The translations under genes were made by a program, and so were the position numbers. DNA of 34,115 bases, taken from the NCBI RefSeq assembly GCF_001273955.1, contig NZ_LIGI01000001.1, positions 791,718-825,832 of the forward strand. The letters run 5' to 3'. Position 1 is the stretch's first letter. Each line of letters begins with the position of its first letter. The notes below the pieces were generated by a model, which saw nothing but the letters and a program-made list of their open reading frames with translations, did no database searches and was not told the origin of the DNA. This document shows, in pieces, positions 1,904 through 31,666 of this stretch. The stretch is from Bacillus sp. FJAT-27245. GTDB taxonomy: Bacteria > Bacillota > Bacilli > Bacillales > Cytobacillaceae.

Positions 1904-3427
1904 ATGGCGGCAAAGGATAAAAATCTTAAACTCGTCGTTACCGGGCTATTGCTCGGAATATTAATGGCCGCGATGGATAATACGATTGTCGTGACGGCAA
2001 TGGGGACAATTGTTGCCGACCTGGGAGGGTTTGACAGGTTTGTGTGGGTCACAGCTTCTTATATGGTCGCAGTTATGGCTGGAATGCCGATTTACGGAAA
2101 ATTGTCCGATATGTATGGACGGAAAAGGTTTTTTATTTTTGGGCTGATTGTATTCTTGTTGGGTTCCTGTCTGTGCGGTCTCGCGCAAACAATGGATCAG
2201 CTGATTCTTTTCCGTGCAATCCAGGGAATTGGTGGCGGAGCGCTTCTTCCGATTTCCTTTACGATTGTCTTTGATATTTTCCCGCCGGAAAACAGGGGGA
2301 AGATGACTGGGCTGTTAGGGGCGGTTTTCGGTTTATCCAGTGTCCTCGGGCCGTTACTAGGCGCATTCATTACTGATTCAGTCGGCTGGAATTGGGTATT
2401 CTACATAAACGTCCCAATCGGAATCGTTTCATTGGCTCTTATTTCTTTGTTTTACAAAGAATCGCTCGAACACAAAAAGCAAAAGGTTGACTGGTGGGGA
2501 GCCATTACGCTTGTGGTGGCAGTTGTGTCGCTTATGTTCGCATTGGAGCTCGGTGGAAAGGAATACGAGTGGAACTCTACGCAAATTATTGGCTTGTTCA
2601 CGGTTTTTGCTGTATTCTTCATCGCCTTTTTTATGATTGAACGGAAAGCGGAAGAGCCAATTATTTCATTCTGGATGTTTAAAAACCGCCTATTCGCCAC
2701 TTCGCAAATCCTTGCTTTCCTTTACGGCGGGACATTCATCATTCTTGCGGTTTTCATTCCAATCTTTGTTCAGGCGGTGTATGGCGGTTCGGCCACGAAT
2801 GCCGGATTCATCCTGACGCCAATGATGCTTGGGTCAGTTGCGGGAAGCATGATCGGCGGTATTTTCCAAACGAAAACGAGTTTCAGAAACCTGATGTTCA
2901 TTTCAATCATTGCTTATGGGGCCGGGATGATTTTATTAAGCACGCTGACGCCAGAGACCTCCCGGGTTCTTTTGACAATCTATATGGTTATTGTCGGATT
3001 TGGGACAGGGTTTTCGTTTTCGCTACTTCCGGCTGCTTCCATTAATAATCTTGATTTTAAATACCGGGGCTCGGCTAACTCAACGAACTCGTTTCTCCGT
3101 TCGTTTGGCATGACACTAGGGGTTACAATTTTCGGAACGATACAAACAAAAGTTTTTACGAATAAGCTGGAGAAGGCGTTTTCCGATTTTCCTGGTGCAG
3201 GCGCCGGTAATCCAATGAATATTAGTGATCCGCGGCAAATTTTCAGCGGGGAAGGAAGGGCAAGGATACCAGAAAATATCCTTGAAATTATCGTAAATGC
3301 CATGTCAGACTCGATTACGTATATTTTCCTGCTTACACTAATTCCGATTGCGGTTGCCGCGATCACAATCTTTTTTATGGGCAACGCCCGAGTTGAAATA
3401 AACAAGGAAAAGAACACAGCCAGGTAA
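1904..3427 (+). CDS. DHA2-family multidrug:H+ antiporter (14 TM, EmrB/QacA type)
   Basis: A 507-residue inner-membrane exporter of the major facilitator superfamily, expected to use the proton gradient to expel lipophilic drugs. Family marks are the TM1 motif [14 protein letters not shown], motif [12 protein letters not shown] in the first cytoplasmic loop, the antiporter motif C in [14 protein letters not shown] (TM5), and [11 protein letters not shown] at the end of TM6. The length and hydrophobic segments fit the 14-helix DHA2 class rather than the 12-helix DHA1 class. B. subtilis relatives are Mdr and YusP; the substrate cannot be read from sequence. The ATG has a GGGGAAGGCGGT site 6-13 bases upstream. 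It is monocistronic between its own promoter and a terminator. No local regulator gene is adjacent. Confidence 0.93.
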
Positions 3428-5057: not shown

Positions 5058-5405
5058 ATGCAACAAACTAAGATCGAGGTTGAACAAGCATCTCTTGTCC
5101 TAAAGCTTCTTGGTGACAGGACGAGGCTGACAATCATGGCTCTTCTCAAAATGAGGGAACTATGCGTATGTGAACTGCTTGAGGTTTTCGACATGAGCCA
5201 GCCAGCCATCAGCCAGCACCTGCGCAAACTAAAGGACGCAGGCCTTGTAATAGAGGAGCGGAAAGGCCAGTGGATTTATTATTCGCTTAATAAAAACAAC
5301 ATTGCTTCCCCGCTTGTGGAAACTGTCCTGGAGTTCGTACCTGGACAACACGAAAAAATGGAACAAATCATTGAAAGCAACCCGACAATGAGGTGCGGTT
5401 GCTAA
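5058..5405 (+). CDS. arsR: ArsR-family arsenite-responsive repressor
   Basis: A 115-residue winged-helix repressor that releases the ars promoter on binding As(III) or Sb(III). The metalloid-binding motif ELCVCEL gives C36 and C38, located at the start of the DNA-recognition region as in canonical ArsR. The recognition helix is in MSQPAISQHLRKLKDAGLV, and the wing in ERKGQWIYYSLN. A further C-terminal CGC ends the protein. A ribosome site AAAGGAGG (5043-5050) precedes the ATG. It is first in an arsR-arsB-arsC operon and probably autoregulated through the dyad in the promoter. Confidence 0.95.
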   Translation: MQQTKIEVEQASLVLKLLGDRTRLTIMALLKMRELCVCELLEVFDMSQPAISQHLRKLKDAGLVIEERKGQWIYYSLNKNNIASPLVETVLEFVPGQHEKMEQIIESNPTMRCGC

Positions 5406-5429
5406 ACTGTTATTTTTGGAGGTTTGAGC

Positions 5430-6728
5430 TTGGTGTCATCAATATTGGCATTACTTATTTTTTTGGCAACATTAATCCTGGTTATTTGGCAGCCTAGAAA
5501 TCTATCCATCGGCTGGTCTGCATGCGGAGGAGCTGTCCTTGCCCTGCTTGTGGGGGTCGTTGATTTAACCGATGTAATGGATGTGACGCAAATTGTCTGG
5601 AATGCCACATTCTCTTTTATTGCCATTATAATCATATCCCTCATATTAGATGAAATAGGCTTCTTTGAATGGGCCGCACTCCATATGGCGAGGGCCGCTA
5701 AAGGGAACGGCATTAAAATGTATGTTTACATTTGTATTTTAGGTGCCCTGGTGGCAGCCTTGTTCGCAAATGATGGAGCCGCTCTAATCCTGACGCCAAT
5801 TGTCCTGGCGATGGTAAGAAACTTGAAGTTTGAAGAGAAGATGATCTTCCCATTCATCATCGCAAGCGGCTTTGTCCCCGATACAACTTCACTTCCGCTT
5901 TTAGTCAGCAACCTGGTAAACATCGTATCGGCTGACTTCTTTGATATAGGTTTCAATGAGTTTGCCTCAAGGATGTTCGTTCCAAATCTTTTTTCTTTAC
6001 TCAGCAGCATTTTCGTTCTGTTTCTTTATTTCAGAAAGATTTTACCCCGGAAGTACGAAGTGACTGATTTAAAAAAGCCTGTTGAGGCGATAAAGGACAA
6101 AAGAATGTTCCGGCTTTCCTGGATTGTCCTTGCACTGTTGCTTTCCGGGTACTTCATCAGCGAGTTTTTCCGCATCCCAGTGTCAATCATTGCTGGAACG
6201 GTCGCACTATTCTTCCTGTTCATGGGGAGGAGAAGCCCGGCTTTTGATACAAAAACCGTAGTAAAGGGTGCTCCGTGGGCAATTGTGTTTTTCTCAATCG
6301 GAATGTATGTGGTCGTATATGGTTTGCGAAACGCTGGGTTGACGGGCCTTTTGGCCGGGATGATTCAATGGACAGCGGACCATGGATTATTCGCAGCTAC
6401 TATCGGAATGGGATTCATCGCGGCCGTTCTCTCGTCCATAATGAATAACATGCCTACCGTCATGATTGATGCACTTGCCATCGCCGATACAAATACAACA
6501 GGAGTTTTGAGAGAGGCCTTGATTTATGCGAATGTAATCGGGTCTGACCTGGGCCCGAAAATTACGCCTATTGGGTCCCTTGCAACCTTGTTATGGTTGC
6601 ACGTACTCTCCCTAAAAGGAGTCAAAATCTCGTGGGGGACCTACTTCAAAACTGGGATCGTGTTAACCATCCCTGTCCTCTTTATCACACTGGCAGGGCT
6701 CTATATATGGCTGGCCATTATTTCGTAG
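5430..6728 (+). CDS. arsB: ArsB arsenite efflux pump
   Basis: About 432 residues; an inner-membrane arsenite/antimonite exporter of the ArsB/NhaD ion-transporter superfamily. It is almost wholly hydrophobic with 10-12 segments. Family signatures include [17 protein letters not shown] at the N-terminus, [30 protein letters not shown] and [13 protein letters not shown]. No arsA ATPase is present, so it acts as a secondary, membrane-potential-driven pump. The start is uncertain: the site GGAGG (5418-5422) is 7 bases from TTG 5430 and 10 from GTG 5433, while an in-frame TTG at 5424 is too close. It follows arsR by about 24 bases and is co-transcribed. Confidence 0.94.
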
Positions 6729-6758
6729 CGAATTTTTTTCAAAAAGGAGCAATCAAAA

Positions 6759-7181
6759 ATGTCAAAGAAAACGATTTACTTCTTGTGTACAGGAAATTCA
6801 TGCCGCAGCCAAATGGCTGAAGGATGGGCCAAAAAATACTTAAGCAACGAGGAGTGGGAAGTTAAAAGCGCGGGTCTTGAAGCACATGGATTGAATCCTA
6901 ACGCAGTAAAAGCAATGAAGGAAGCAGGAATTGATATCTCCAACCAGACTTCCGATGTGATAGACCCCAACATCTTGAATAACGCAAATTTAATTGTCAC
7001 ATTGTGCGGCCATGCGGCTGACCATTGTCCTGTAACCCCTCCACATGTAAAAAAAGAACATTGGGGATTTGATGACCCGGCGAAAGCGGAGGGAAAGGAT
7101 GAAGAAAAATGGGCTTTCTTCCAGCGTGTTCGTGATGAAATTGGCGATAGGATCAAGACATTCGCCGATACAGGAAAGTAG
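6759..7181 (+). CDS. arsC: Thioredoxin-dependent arsenate reductase
   Basis: A 140-residue cytoplasmic enzyme that reduces arsenate to arsenite for export by ArsB. It belongs to the low-molecular-weight phosphatase-like ArsC class, with the P-loop [11 protein letters not shown] (nucleophile C10, C15) and the redox pair C83 and C90 in [10 protein letters not shown]. The three catalytic cysteines of the thioredoxin-coupled triple-Cys relay are therefore all present. The ribosome site AAAAAGGAG precedes the ATG. It is the last gene of the ars operon, 30 bases after arsB. Confidence 0.97.
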
Positions 7182-13145: not shown

Positions 13146-14009
13146 TTAAACGAGAAAAAATATGAAACCAGAAATCGTGCTCATCGTAATGACAGAAAGT
13201 ACAAACGCAATCACAAGCTGCTTGCGGAAGATGGATTTTAAAAGGACTACCTCCGGAAGGCTTGCACCGGCGGATGAAATCATGAGCGCCATAACAGGGC
13301 CAAGAGCCATACCTTTTGCAATCAAGATCTGGGAGATTGGAATCATGCTTGATAATCGAATATACAAAGGAATTCCGATGATGGCCGCAATTGGGATTAG
13401 CCACCATCTGTCCTGTCCGAACCATTCAGCGATAAAGTGTGTCGGAACCAGCCCATGGATTGCTGCCCCGATAAACGCTCCAATGAGCAGATATGGGTAG
13501 ACGCTTTTCATGAGGGAAAGTGTTTCGGCCAGCGCGTACCTCCAATTGAATTTCCTCGTTGATTGTTCATATCCCTTCATCACAACATTTTTCACATGCC
13601 GTTCAAACCCTAGTTTATCTAGTGCAAAACCGATGGCAATTGAGAGGATGGAAGTGATTAACGTATAGAGAGCCGTTACTTTCCAGCCCATGACAACCCC
13701 CATGATTGTCAGGATCGTCGGGTCCAGGACCGGCGAAGCAAATAGGAAGACCATTGTGATTGAAAATGGAATCTTGTTCTTCAGCATGTTGACGACAACC
13801 GGTATCGTGGAGCAAGAACAGAATGGCGTGATAAAAGCGAACACGATGGCAATGATGCTTGCAATGAACTTATTGCTGCCAGTCAGCTTTCTTTCTATTT
13901 TCTCATAAGGTATATAGCCTTGCAGCAGGCTGATGGCAAAGCTGATGATAATGAACAGGATGGTCAATTCAACCGCGATTCCGAGAAAACTTTTTAAAAA
14001 ATCCATCAT
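13146..14009 (-). CDS. ArsP/DUF318-family permease
   Basis: A 287-residue membrane protein of the permease family PF03773 (ArsP_1/UPF0718). It has about eight hydrophobic segments. The family motif TPFCSCSTIPVV, with its cysteine pair, lies near residue 60-70; FASPVLDPTI and the second-half mirror MISSAGASLPEVVLLKSIF follow. ArsP members export trivalent organoarsenicals; others have no known substrate. The ribosome site TAGGAGGCTAAG precedes ATGATG. Its neighbours (an ArsR with CxC, two small Cys proteins) point to a metalloid or thiophilic substrate, but the substrate is inferred. The spacing of 11 bases to the 58-residue gene indicates one transcript. Confidence 0.88.
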   Translation of the reverse strand: MMDFLKSFLGIAVELTILFIIISFAISLLQGYIPYEKIERKLTGSNKFIASIIAIVFAFITPFCSCSTIPVVVNMLKNKIPFSITMVFLFASPVLDPTILTIMGVVMGWKVTALYTLITSILSIAIGFALDKLGFERHVKNVVMKGYEQSTRKFNWRYALAETLSLMKSVYPYLLIGAFIGAAIHGLVPTHFIAEWFGQDRWWLIPIAAIIGIPLYIRLSSMIPISQILIAKGMALGPVMALMISSAGASLPEVVLLKSIFRKQLVIAFVLSVITMSTISGFIFFLV

Positions 14010-14020
14010 AACTTAGCCTC

Positions 14021-14197
14021 CTATGCCTCGCACAAGCATTGGCAATCGGAAACCTTTGCTTTTGGGGCGTTCCTTTTGAAAAAACCGAAAAAGTTTCTTT
14101 CTTCCATAGGGGGAGAGTGTTTCCAGGCGTCTTTAGCATTCTCTTCAATTTCCCGCTGTTTTAATTCAACCATCAGTTCGATATCGTAAATTGTCAT
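14021..14197 (-). CDS. 58-residue small protein with C-terminal CxCxC
   Basis: MTIYDIELMVELKQREIEEN followed by a helical charged part, then NFFGFFKR and the tail SDCQCLCEA (three Cys spaced CxCxC). The start is the ATG at 14197 (site AAGGAGGAAATTG); an upstream ATG at 14218 lies in the operator and has no site. The amphipathic helix is rich in Glu/Lys, and the Cys tail is suited to bind a soft metal or As(III). I do not recognise the family. It sits between arsR and the permease, preceded by operator copy 2, so it should be induced with them. Confidence 0.72.
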   Translation of the reverse strand: MTIYDIELMVELKQREIEENAKDAWKHSPPMEERNFFGFFKRNAPKAKVSDCQCLCEA

Positions 14198-14210
14198 TGC
14201 AATTTCCTCC

Positions 14211-14255
14211 TTAATCAAATAAAGTTGTTTTATTAATCAAAAAAAATTGATTTAA
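14211..14255 (-). promoter_or_regulatory. ArsR-type operator, copy 2 with extra half-site
   Basis: TTAATCAA (14233-14240)-N6-TTGATTTAA (14247-14255), with another TTAATCAA half-site at 14211-14218. It lies between arsR and the 58-residue gene. Confidence 0.65.
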
Positions 14256-14271
14256 TATCCAGCCTAAAGGC

Positions 14272-14598
14272 CTAACAGGAAGCAGGCCTGAATAAGCAGC
14301 ATAGCTCGTTTGACAGCAAGTGGTTGATTTCCTTTTGGTTAATTGCGTAATAGCTCCATGTCCCTTTCGCTTCCTTTAAAATCAAATTGGCTTCTAGGAG
14401 AATTTTTAGATGGTACGATAGCTTGGATTGCTGCATGTCGATCATGTCGGCTAAATCGCAAACACAGATGGAATCTTGCTGGCAGAGAAGGTTTAAGATC
14501 TGGAGCCGTTTTTGGTCCGCAAGTGCTTTGAATTTTTGCTCATAGGATGCAAAAGTATCCTGCAGGGAAACATCTGTCAGCGGAATTGTCTTTTCCAT
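14272..14598 (-). CDS. ArsR-family regulator of the permease operon
   Basis: A 108-residue winged-helix repressor. The metal-binding motif SICVCDL gives C45 and C47, with C39 nearby; the tail ELCCLFRPASC adds three Cys. The recognition helix is in MQQSKLSYHLKILLEANLI and the wing in KGTWSYYAIN. The ATG at 14598 is chosen, because AAAGGAAG lies 9 bases before it; the upstream ATGATG at 14619-14616 overlaps that site. Its promoter is flanked by operator copies 3 and 4, so it should repress itself and the operon. The inducer is probably As(III) or a related thiophilic species, judged from the CxC motif. Confidence 0.93.
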   Translation of the reverse strand: MEKTIPLTDVSLQDTFASYEQKFKALADQKRLQILNLLCQQDSICVCDLADMIDMQQSKLSYHLKILLEANLILKEAKGTWSYYAINQKEINHLLSNELCCLFRPASC

Positions 14599-14611
14599 TC
14601 GGCAACTTCCT

Positions 14612-14633
14612 TTCATCAAATTTTATTGATTAA
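14612..14633 (-). promoter_or_regulatory. ArsR-type operator, copy 3
   Basis: TTCATCAA-N6-TTGATTAA, just downstream of the -10 of the operon promoter. Confidence 0.65.
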
Positions 14634-27529: not shown

Positions 27530-27904
27530 ATGGCCCGGCAAGATATATGTGAAGTTGTTTCAGTCAATAAAGATAAAGTGGATCAAGTTAAGGAGATGCT
27601 CCAACATCAAAGTACTGGTGGGGTGGCGAAAATTTTCAAAGCCCTGTCCGATGATACGAGGTTGAAAATTGCTTACGCCTTGGCGATAGAAGAGGAGCTT
27701 TGCGTCTGTGATGTAGCGACTATCGTTGGATCTTCCGTTGCGACGGCCTCCCATCATTTACGGACCCTCCGCAACCTTGGCTTAGCAAAATTCAGGAAGG
27801 AAGGCAAGCTCGTCTTTTATTCGCTGGATGACGACCATGTGAAACAGCTTATCGAGATTGCCTTTGAACATCATGAGGAGGTGGCTGGGCGTGGCCGAAA
27901 CTAA
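27530..27904 (+). CDS. cadC: CadC-type ArsR/SmtB metal-responsive repressor
   Basis: A 124-residue winged-helix repressor released by Cd(II), Pb(II) or Zn(II). The metal-site cysteines C7 (DICEV) and C58, C60 (ELCVCDV) occupy the same numbers as in Staphylococcus pI258 CadC. The recognition helix is in SSVATASHHLRTLRNLGLA, and the wing in RKEGKLVFYSLDDDH. The ribosome site GAGGTGGGA precedes the ATG. It overlaps the cadA start region by 14 bases (GTG 27891), so translation is coupled. It should repress the operon through the two dyads upstream. Confidence 0.95.
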   Translation: MARQDICEVVSVNKDKVDQVKEMLQHQSTGGVAKIFKALSDDTRLKIAYALAIEEELCVCDVATIVGSSVATASHHLRTLRNLGLAKFRKEGKLVFYSLDDDHVKQLIEIAFEHHEEVAGRGRN

Positions 27905-30002
27905 ACAGATTTTTCGTATTGAGGGGCTTTCCTGAGCGAGCTGCGCGGCGAAGTTCGAAAAGAACGTCAAGCACCTGGATGGTGTTTCTAACGCAGCTAT
28001 CAATTTTGGCGCTTCAAAAATAACCGTGTACGGAACAGCAACAATTGAGGAAATCGAAGAAGCGGGCGCCTTTGACCGGCTGAAAATTTTCCCGGAGAGA
28101 GCTGCTGCTTCCGAAACGGTACAAGAGCCTTTTTTCAAAAAATACGCCAGGGTAATCATTTCATTGGCTTTCGTCCTGATGGGATACGCTTCGCACTGGT
28201 TTAATGGGGAGGCTTCTGCCGCATTTTTGCCATTCCTTGCTGCCATTTTGATTGGTGGATATCCATTATTTAAAACCGGCCTGAAAAACTTGGTCCGGCT
28301 TGAATTCGACATGAGGACCTTAATGACGATTGCCATCATAGGGGCGGCAATCATCGGAGAGTGGAGCGAGGGAGCGGTCGTTGTCATCCTGTTCGCGATA
28401 AGCGAAGAACTCGAGAAATTTTCGATGGATAAAGCGAGGGCCTCCATCCGGTCGCTTATGGATATTGCCCCTAAAGAAGCCTTGATCCGCAGGAATGGCG
28501 ATACACTGGTAATTCCGGCTGATGAAATCGAAATCGGCGACATCATGATTGTGAAGCCAGGGCAAAAACTGGCGATGGATGGAATTGTAACGAAAGGGCA
28601 TTCAACGGTTAACCAGGCTGCCATTACAGGGGAATCCGTTCCGGTTGAAAAAAAGGAGCGCGATGATGTGTATGCCGGTACCTTAAATGAAGAAGGAATC
28701 TTGGAAGTAGAGGTAACAAAGCTTGTCGCGGACACGGCAATCGCAAAAATTATCCACCTGGTCGAGGAAGCACAGGCGGAAAAAGCGCCCGCACAGGCTT
28801 TCATTGACCGCTTCGCCAAATATTATACGCCGATAATCATGGCAATTGCCGCACTGGTCGCAATTGTTCCGCCGCTTCTATTCGGAGCGGGCTGGAATGA
28901 ATGGATTTACCAAGGCCTATCGGTATTGGTTGTTGGCTGTCCATGCGCATTGGTCATTTCAACGCCGGTTTCCATTGTCACGGCAATTGGAAATGCCGCC
29001 CGGAACGGAGTTCTAATTAAGGGTGGCATCCACTTGGAGGAAACCGGAGCACTAAATGCCATTGCCTTTGATAAAACCGGTACGCTGACAAAAGGCGTTC
29101 CGGCCGTAACGGACATTATTGCCTTAAAAGGAAAGGATGAAAAAGAGATTCTGTCCGTTTTGGCGGCTCTCGAATACGGGTCCCAACACCCGCTCGCTTC
29201 GGCAATTTTAAAAAAGGCTGAAGATCTCTCCATTCCCTTTAAAGATGTATTCGTTGAAGATGCATCTTCCGTAACCGGGAAGGGAATTAAAGGCAGGATT
29301 AACGGAACATCTTTTTTCGCCGGAAGCCCGGCCTTTATGGCGGACGTTTGCCGGGAAAAAGCGATCCGTCCTCTTCAGGCGCAAATTGAATCGCTACAAA
29401 AGGAAGGAAAGACAGTTATGGCCCTTTTTAGCGAAAAAGATATACTAGCCCTCGTTGGCGTTGCGGATGAGGTACGGGAAAGCAGCCGTGAAGTCATCGA
29501 CAGGCTGCATGGCATGGGCATTAAGAGGACGGTTATGCTGACAGGGGACAATGCGGGAACCGCACGGGCAATTGGGGCACAAACCGGAGTAACCGATATC
29601 CGGGCGGAGCTTCTCCCTGAAGATAAATTGTCAATAATAAAGGAGCTTAGGAAGGATTATGGGAAGGTGGCGATGGTTGGGGATGGAATAAATGACGCCC
29701 CGGCACTTGCCGCTGCAACGATCGGAATCGCGATGGGCGGCGCGGGAACGGACACGGCCCTTGAAACCGCCGATCTAGCCCTGATGGGTGACGATCTCAG
29801 AAAGCTGCCATTCGCTATAAAGTTAAGCAGGAAAGCTCTGGCGATTATTAAGCAGAACATCACTTTCTCGCTCGCGCTAAAGCTTGTGGCGCTCCTTTTG
29901 GTCATCCCTGGGTGGCTGACATTGTGGATTGCAATTTTTGCCGATATGGGAGCGACCCTTCTCGTCACGCTTAATGGATTAAGATTATTGAAGGTAAAGT
30001 AA
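27891..30002 (+). CDS. cadA: CadA Cd/Zn/Pb P1B-type ATPase with in-frame TGA at codon 15
   Basis: A cation-exporting ATPase of 703 codons before the stop. GTG 27891 has a strong site (GAGGAGGTG, 27876-27884). The reading frame opens an HMA metal-binding domain, RIEGLS-(TGA)[11 protein letters not shown], in which TGA (27933-27935) replaces the first Cys of CxxC; the frame then stays open to 30002. The rest is complete: about eight helices, [16 protein letters not shown] (CPC), [20 protein letters not shown]. An internal start at GTG 28026 would give 658 residues without most of the HMA domain, but no ribosome site precedes it. So this is a nonsense-interrupted gene, a selenocysteine codon, or a truncated pump. 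Confidence 0.85.
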
Positions 30003-30733: not shown

Positions 30734-31666
30734 ATGGGGCATCATCATCATCATTCCCATTCACATGGCCATGGCCACGGCCATCACCACCATACAGGCA
30801 ACAAAAAGGCGCTGCTTTGGGCATTTGTGCTAATCGCTTCGTTTATGTTCGTGGAAGTGGCGGGCGGCCTGATCACGAACAGCCTGGCGCTGCTTTCGGA
30901 TGCCGGCCATATGCTTAGCGATGCGGCCGCCTTGGGGCTAAGCTATTTTGCGATTAAGCTTGGGGAACGGAAATCCACCCCTGGGAAAACCTTTGGCTAC
31001 AAGCGATTTGAAATTATTGCGGCAGCCTTGAATGGCCTTACGTTGATGGCCATTTCAATCTATATTTTCATTGAGGCATTTCAAAGGTTCAGGAACCCGC
31101 CCGAGGTACAGAGCCTTGGGATGCTGACAATTTCTGCTATTGGGCTACTTGTGAACATTGCAGCCGCCTTTATCCTGATGAGAGGCGATAAAGACGGTAA
31201 CCTCAATGTTAGGAGCGCGTTCCTCCATGTTTTAGGCGACATGCTCGGCTCGGCTGGTGCCATCGTTGCCGCTTTATTGATTTTCTTCTTTGATTGGGGC
31301 GTGGCGGACCCGATTGCGAGTGTCGCCGTCGCGGTATTGATTATCATCTCCGGCTGGAGGGTGACGAAGGAATCCTTCCATATTCTGATGGAGGGTGCTC
31401 CACACCATATTGATACGGGAAAACTGCGTGCTGCTTTATCGAATATCCGATGTGTAAACGATGTCCATGACCTCCATATTTGGTCAGTAACGAGCGGGAT
31501 GCCGATGCTGAGCTGCCATATCGCAATTTCCTGTGAGGGGGATCATGATTCTATCCTTCACGAAGCCCAAAGCCTTCTTCACGACCAGTTTGGCATCGAC
31601 CATAGTACAATTCAGGTTGAAAGGGAAGTTGAGGGCTGTCCGAGCAGCCATGGAGTCTGCAATTAA
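30734..31666 (+). CDS. czcD: CzcD cation diffusion facilitator (Zn/Cd/Co export)
   Basis: A 310-residue proton-coupled metal exporter. The first 20 residues hold 13 His (a natural histidine tail likely to collect Zn). The TM2 metal site is SDAGHMLSDAAALG (HxxxD, the Zn/Cd type) and the TM5 partner is in AFLHVLGDMLGSAGA (HxxxD). The cytoplasmic domain ends in VNDVHDLHIWSVTSGMPMLSCHI and a Cys-bearing tail (GCPSSHGVCN). The ribosome site TTGGGAGG precedes the ATG. It is the last gene of the cad operon, and matches B. subtilis CzcD in length. Confidence 0.95.
   Translation: MGHHHHHSHSHGHGHGHHHHTGNKKALLWAFVLIASFMFVEVAGGLITNSLALLSDAGHMLSDAAALGLSYFAIKLGERKSTPGKTFGYKRFEIIAAALNGLTLMAISIYIFIEAFQRFRNPPEVQSLGMLTISAIGLLVNIAAAFILMRGDKDGNLNVRSAFLHVLGDMLGSAGAIVAALLIFFFDWGVADPIASVAVAVLIIISGWRVTKESFHILMEGAPHHIDTGKLRAALSNIRCVNDVHDLHIWSVTSGMPMLSCHIAISCEGDHDSILHEAQSLLHDQFGIDHSTIQVEREVEGCPSSHGVCN

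Follow-up and report, generated by a model that had tools for sequence, protein, structure and literature searches.

A CadA/ZntA-type heavy-metal pump gene of Bacillus sp. FJAT-27245 with an in-frame UGA that is very probably read as selenocysteine

Does a stop codon placed exactly at the metal-binding motif of an efflux pump mark a broken gene, or is it a site of selenocysteine (Sec) insertion? The question is raised by a P-type ATPase gene of Bacillus sp. FJAT-27245, located in a window of 34,115 nucleotides (the whole stretch of DNA that was analysed; contig NZ_LIGI01000001.1, positions 791,718 to 825,832), for which an earlier note, made from the letters alone, had proposed either selenocysteine or a nonsense mutation. 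The selenocysteine proposal is supported by the presence of the Sec machinery, by the conservation of the TGA codon in relatives (8/8 genomes of the genus and 154/193 of the family), and by selection on the RNA downstream. It is almost certain, from these comparisons of sequences, that the gene is a genuine selenoprotein gene coding for a CadA/ZntA-type pump with Sec at the first metal-ligand position of its HMA domain (U-x-x-C), and the in-frame UGA is very probably read by the cell as selenocysteine.

The pump gene and its neighbours

The frame that opens at GTG 27891 has 703 codons before the stop at 30000-30002, and the TGA, at codon 15, is its sole internal stop, occupying the place of the first Cys in the HMA metal motif GLS-C-xx-C (Table 1). 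The earlier note had described this arrangement correctly, including the strong ribosome site in front of the GTG, the second Cys of the motif and an otherwise intact ATPase: the HMA (PF00403, E 4.6e-12), E1-E2_ATPase and HAD domains are all found. The best match among solved structures is 2aj0 ('Probable cadmium-transporting ATPase'), in which a Cys is aligned with the Sec15 site. Among curated models, the heavy-metal and cadmium-family P-type ATPases are passed (TIGR01525, 611.7 bits for a cut-off of 346.25; TIGR01512, 526.1 for 313.5), as is, narrowly, the copper model TIGR01511 (402.9 bits, cut-off 397), and the E. coli-type ZntA equivalog models stay below their cut-offs (NF008262, 650.9 bits for 1005; NF033775, 566.8 for 1240). 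By its domains and model scores the ATPase fits the P1B-2 type (Zn/Cd/Pb, CadA/ZntA), the transported metal being predicted.

Other candidates for read-through in the window were sought as frames joined across a TGA, with at least 8 codons before it and more than 120 after. There are 13 such joined frames, and only the one at 27933 combines a UxxC-type context with a neighbouring known domain, the rest being judged by eye from their context.

The start of the ATPase gene is overlapped over 14 bases by a metal-responsive repressor gene, and a second metal exporter gene lies 3′ of the pump gene. Further groups of metal or metalloid genes are seen at 5058-7181 and 13146-14619 of the window, with ArsR-like regulators, an ArsB-like or other permease and an ArsC-like protein, all named by appearance, without a search.

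Table 1. Features of the pump locus (positions in the window)
Feature	Position	Strand	Basis or remark
ArsR/SmtB-family metal-responsive repressor gene (CadC-like)	27530..27904	+	NF033788, 93.9 bits (cut-off 55); PF01022
Shine-Dalgarno AGGAGG	27876..27881	+	9 bases upstream of GTG 27891, from sequence
Predicted Sec-containing CadA/ZntA-type P-type ATPase	27891..30002	+	703 residues with Sec15; frame, and TIGR01525 and TIGR01512 above cut-off
UGA codon, very probably read as selenocysteine	27933..27935	+	first HMA ligand position (UASC); TGA in 8/8 genus genomes and 154/193 family genomes
Codon of the second motif Cys (Cys18), TGC	27942..27944	+	Cys in 72/72 unique Sec sequences
Hairpin 1, GUUC-GAAAA-GAAC	27953..27965	+	loop starts after 21 nt from UGA; RNAalifold and pair counts
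Hairpin 2, CACC-UGGAU-GGUG plus one G-U pair	27971..27985 (CACC-GGUG core 27972-27984)	+	loop starts after 40 nt from UGA; RNAalifold and pair counts
Cation-diffusion-facilitator metal exporter gene	30734..31666	+	PF01545, PF16916; linked to the pump by proximity alone

Codon 15 in relatives and the selenocysteine machinery

An orthologue is present in all 8 genomes of the genus (the strain itself and 7 others, 66-81% identity), each with one TGA, and codon 15, which the earlier note had proposed to compare among sister strains, reads TGA and not TGC in every one of them. Among the matches listed for the 193 genomes of the family (to about 1e-61), a TGA form occurs at least once in 154 genomes, 24 have only Cys forms, a class in which weaker extra copies could be TGA (for example in G027, G028, G033, G039, G040, G066, G169, G171, G175 and G176), and 15 are without an orthologue. 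For 53 genomes the search was repeated with a full listing, from which rows weaker than 1e-30 (other P-type ATPases, fragments) were excluded and in which a 98-residue TGA fragment (G069) was counted. The TGA form is also carried by plasmid pBO1 of Cytobacillus oceanisediminis, whose RefSeq CDS is annotated as one, across the TGA; three more Cytobacillus plasmid records match equally well by similarity.

That an ordinary Cys-type CadA gene was hit by a nonsense mutation or misread in sequencing, a possibility which the earlier note had kept and which could appeal to the single base that separates TGC from TGA and to the relatives with TGC or TGT at this codon, is the least probable of all readings and already refuted, given that independent genomes share the codon (8/8 and 154/193, mostly inside open frames of about 700 codons) and that silent sites 3′ of it are frozen (next section).

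Could the true product start at GTG 28026 or later, without the HMA domain, the TGA merely ending a short regulatory leader? A frame of 658 aa does open at this GTG, and some P1B ATPases are without an HMA domain, as may be compared with a 648-aa relative encoded in the same genome, whose match to the ATPase begins only after the HMA part. However, the HMA protein sequence is kept before and after the TGA (of the first 48 residues, 34 are invariant in the 8 genus sequences), and Cys homologues keep the domain. A ribosome site before GTG 28026 was looked for by eye and none was found, in agreement with what the earlier note had said of the next in-frame start. A product of this kind is thus very improbable, and reinitiation at GTG 28026 was rejected for want of a ribosome site by eye and for the conservation of the HMA domain on both sides of the TGA.

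The genome of the strain encodes SelA (561.7 bits), SelB (370.7 bits) and SelD (398.5 bits, with an internal TGA), and a tRNA-Sec with anticodon TCA is present; all four genes for which the earlier note had proposed to search (selA, selB, selC and selD) are there. A small gene beside selA (L021:2584-2823), SelW-like by appearance, carries CMM-TGA. There are two near-identical tRNA-Sec genes, 13.4 kb apart (L017:4145-17683, that is C1:1834144-1847682), and one such gene in each of the 7 other genus genomes (E 1e-8). The two copies enclose a SIR2-like large protein, a DUF3732/AAA ATPase and a piece of a DDE transposase, and the stretch resembles a mobile island, perhaps concerned with defence, bounded by a duplication of tRNA-Sec.

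In the family, SelA is found in 153 of the 154 TGA genomes, in 12 of the 24 Cys-only genomes (among the matches listed) and in 7 of the 15 without an orthologue (Fisher p ~2e-11 for TGA form against SelA, optimistic with kinship uncorrected). The SelA-less family genomes number 21, G192 being placed there by deduction, and the SelA-less genomes G063, G108, G165, G173 and G183, listed in full, have no TGA form. The same association appears in a sample of the order (397 genomes, 121 of the 381 outside the family being tabulated, with matches to about 3e-57): among the matches listed, SelA is found in 39 of 41 TGA genomes and 26 of 80 Cys-only genomes (Fisher p ~6e-12, also optimistic through relatedness). 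Both samples together give SelA in 192/195 TGA genomes, and the comparison shows that UGA is kept where the Sec machinery is kept.

SelA was not found at the threshold used in three TGA genomes. One belongs to the family and is an 81% complete assembly (G179); the two others, from outside the family (G722 and G923), have intact recoding signals. The Sec-type pump gene of G722 (L216:3371-8550) is located on an 8.7-kb contig beside a gene resembling a transposase, which suggests a recent transfer. These three genomes, apparently without SelA, are what could be put forward for the idea that a standard amino acid is placed at UGA, through either a near-cognate tRNA (Trp, Cys) or a changed code. 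Against this stand the presence of SelA in all the other TGA genomes, the conserved hairpins, and the residue replaced, which is Cys, the usual partner of Sec; moreover, SelD of the same genome also has a TGA at a Cys/Sec site. Such decoding is hardly credible, and a changed genetic code was rejected because TGA goes together with SelA.

Selenocysteine, then, is the preferred reading of the codon, and it does not seem to be essential to the pump, since 12 of the 165 SelA-positive, orthologue-bearing family genomes show only Cys forms among the matches listed.

The RNA 3′ of the codon in selenocysteine and cysteine forms

Signals in the RNA were compared between unique sequences of the two forms (72 Sec, 68 Cys), two false pattern matches (L083, L181) having been removed first. 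Silent codon positions 3′ of the TGA are frozen in Sec genes and not in Cys genes: the Phe codon is TTC in 72/72 Sec against 17/68 Cys sequences, and the Asn codon is AAC in 70/72 against 16/68. The Leu codon is CTG in all 72 Sec sequences, and the third base of codon 9 is G in every one of them, though this codon specifies K, E, Q, T or S. RNAalifold, run without a preset structure, returns two tandem hairpins, GUUC-GAxxx-GAAC followed by CRCC-UGGAU-GGYG. The first has a loop opening with GA in 72/72 sequences and a compensatory change at its outer pair (G-C to A-U in one sequence, and A-U again in L201); in the second, an A-U pair is changed to G-C in 7 sequences, UGGA of the loop is invariant and the last U is kept in at least 90% of Sec sequences. 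Paired cells amount to 99.4% in Sec sequences against 64.7% in Cys sequences. Covariation is limited, with 2 of 10 base pairs covarying and 6 of 10 never varying, and the RNA of the strain's own gene, taken alone, folds no better than shuffled sequences (z -0.55 over 60 nt and +0.75 over 38 nt), so the structure rests on comparative evidence. Both hairpins are kept in 14 further Sec genes, of which six come from outside the family. Locus L070 reads as intact. Altogether, this comparison shows that the downstream RNA is under selection.

To what extent do these hairpins resemble a bacterial SECIS element (bSECIS)? According to the legend of Fig. 2A in PMC13188914, the bSECIS model has a loop of 3-9 nt on a stem of at least 4 bp, 16-37 nt from the UGA, with a G in the first two loop positions (commonly in the pattern GG or GU) and an MFE of -7.5 or lower. 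Hairpin 1 falls within these limits (loop 5, stem 4, G first, 21 nt), marginally as to energy (-7.6 kcal/mol for a 38-nt stretch that includes a further small hairpin), but has GA instead of the common loop pattern. Hairpin 2 has the GG, in a UGGAU loop, but starts after 40 nt, just beyond the range. The stem described in the earlier note, with its loop 21 bases after the TGA and opening with G, is indeed hairpin 1; described there as weak and as encoding conserved residues anyway, it is kept beyond the needs of the protein, and hairpin 2 was absent from that account.

A similar arrangement is seen in another gene of the lineage. The flanks of selA were compared in 20 other genomes (L221-L240) and in the strain itself (L021), and a TGA-bearing SelD was recovered in 19/21 and a SelW-like gene in 18/21, counts that do not measure the constancy of TGA in these genes as its presence was required for recovery. 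The SelD site reads KAG-U-GCK and is followed, as in CadA, by two tandem hairpins. Across 16 unique sequences, the first of them has its loop at +18 (UGA, AGA or CGA), and the second has GU at +34 in 16/16. Compensatory pairs are found in both (A-T for G-C at 13-25 in 2 sequences, G-C for A-T at 33-37 in 3), and each hairpin has one pair that is broken in 2/16. The SelW-like gene (CM-x-TGA), located by selD and selA, has a single hairpin of the usual type at +22 to +26, with an [A/G]GUNU loop (mostly AGUNU) in 17 of 18 unique sequences and AGGUU in one.

What becomes of the signal in Cys forms? In L173, which lies inside a Sec clade and comes from a genome without SelA (G108), the codon is TGC and HLDGV is kept, one pair of hairpin 1 being lost and one of hairpin 2 weakened. 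In L219 (G190, SelA present), TGC is accompanied by a broken pair in hairpin 2. In L220 (G124), the codon is TGT with both hairpins still intact, and the same genome has a second, TGA copy; the coexistence of the two is possibly a replacement in progress. This Sec copy (L218, minus strand, near 2700-3300 of 6001) has a second TGA just before the HMA domain. On the unrooted tree, 9 changes of the Sec/Cys label are needed, of which 6 are forced by starred branches; in a rooting attempt the outgroup branches were very long and the base was a polytomy, so the direction of change from Sec to Cys is argued from the leftover signals and not from the tree. It thus appears that the loss of Sec is recorded in the natural Cys versions found inside Sec clades, in some of which the signal is decaying.

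A proposed mechanism and its relation to known systems

Translation of the pump would start at GTG 27891, probably coupled to the upstream ArsR-type repressor gene, and SelB with Sec-tRNA-Sec, guided by the hairpins at 27953-27985, would insert Sec at UGA 27933 with no termination. SelB may bind at the GG loop of hairpin 2, with hairpin 1 serving as a conserved spacer or accessory element and shortening the effective distance to the UGA. Synthesis of the pump would depend on selenium, because termination at the UGA leaves a 14-residue peptide. In the protein, Sec could act as a softer and stronger HMA ligand for Cd(II), Pb(II), Hg(II) or Zn(II).

Alternatively, Sec may be real and its value regulatory or redox, the synthesis or activity of the pump being tied to selenium or oxidant status and not to metal affinity, a variant of the preferred reading that does not exclude it. 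Termination at the UGA would abolish the pump, Cys forms occur elsewhere, and the HMA domain of P1B ATPases is commonly held to be regulatory, all of which is in favour of such a role; on the other hand, Sec15 occupies what we take to be a direct metal-ligand position in the HMA fold, where a Cys is aligned in 2aj0. A regulatory or redox value is rather unlikely on this evidence, and it and the ligand role may both be regarded as live for the part played by selenium in metal binding and resistance.

Taken together, the observations on Sec insertion and on the pump can be joined in a broader proposal, which is tentative and has somewhat less than an even chance of holding as a whole: in Bacillales, a two-hairpin Sec signal, in which a small conserved hairpin lies between the UGA and a SelB-binding hairpin with a GG or GU loop, would operate in both CadA and SelD with the SelB loop 33-40 nt away and not about 20, and metal export would be selenium-dependent in most genomes of a large family, Sec being a metal ligand in the pump. 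The selenoproteins known so far are regarded for the most part as redox proteins. In the present case selenium would stand in for sulphur where an efflux pump binds its metal, the codon being kept in 154/193 family genomes. As Cys versions exist beside the Sec forms, a direct test is possible: why pay for Sec in metal binding? The same comparison could show whether metal tolerance depends on selenium supply.

Among known systems, Cys-type CadA proteins of Gram-positive chromosomes and plasmids (for example in Oceanobacillus, Staphylococcus and Listeria) belong to the same family, with 49-61% identity over the N-terminal 160 residues in the set of loci compared, but have CxxC in place of UxxC and hairpin pairs that are not kept, and frequently carry two or three HMA domains; in four listed plasmid records, an annotated cadC lies under the match. 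The UxxU metal-binding (seleno)protein model NF041115 matches the HMA part of the pump weakly (28.8 bits, far below the cut-off of 95), and this family, listed in PMC13188914 among selenoprotein families as UxxU, has two Sec where the pump has one.

A closer likeness is found in P1B ATPases that share the pump's COG/TIGR family and have Sec in UxxC (for example ABB15669.1), which are already listed as selenoproteins in PMC13188914, PMC9312934 and PMC2398784, and which are likened to the pump by family description and not as orthologues. For this family, 25 organisms and 32 genes are counted in Table 3 of PMC5029168. Bacillaceae hosts or a recoding signal for it do not appear in the covered parts of these four sources, and a literature search, with most subscription journals outside its scope, returned no account of the Bacillales form, its spread, its two-hairpin signal or its function. 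The 2026 review (PMC13188914) considers that the exact roles of such proteins in heavy-metal detoxification need more study. The pump gene appears to belong, by sequence, to an already predicted selenoprotein family, and what seems new is a codon and a decoding signal conserved together across many relatives, with a two-hairpin arrangement that bears on the recognition and prediction of recoding signals in bacteria.
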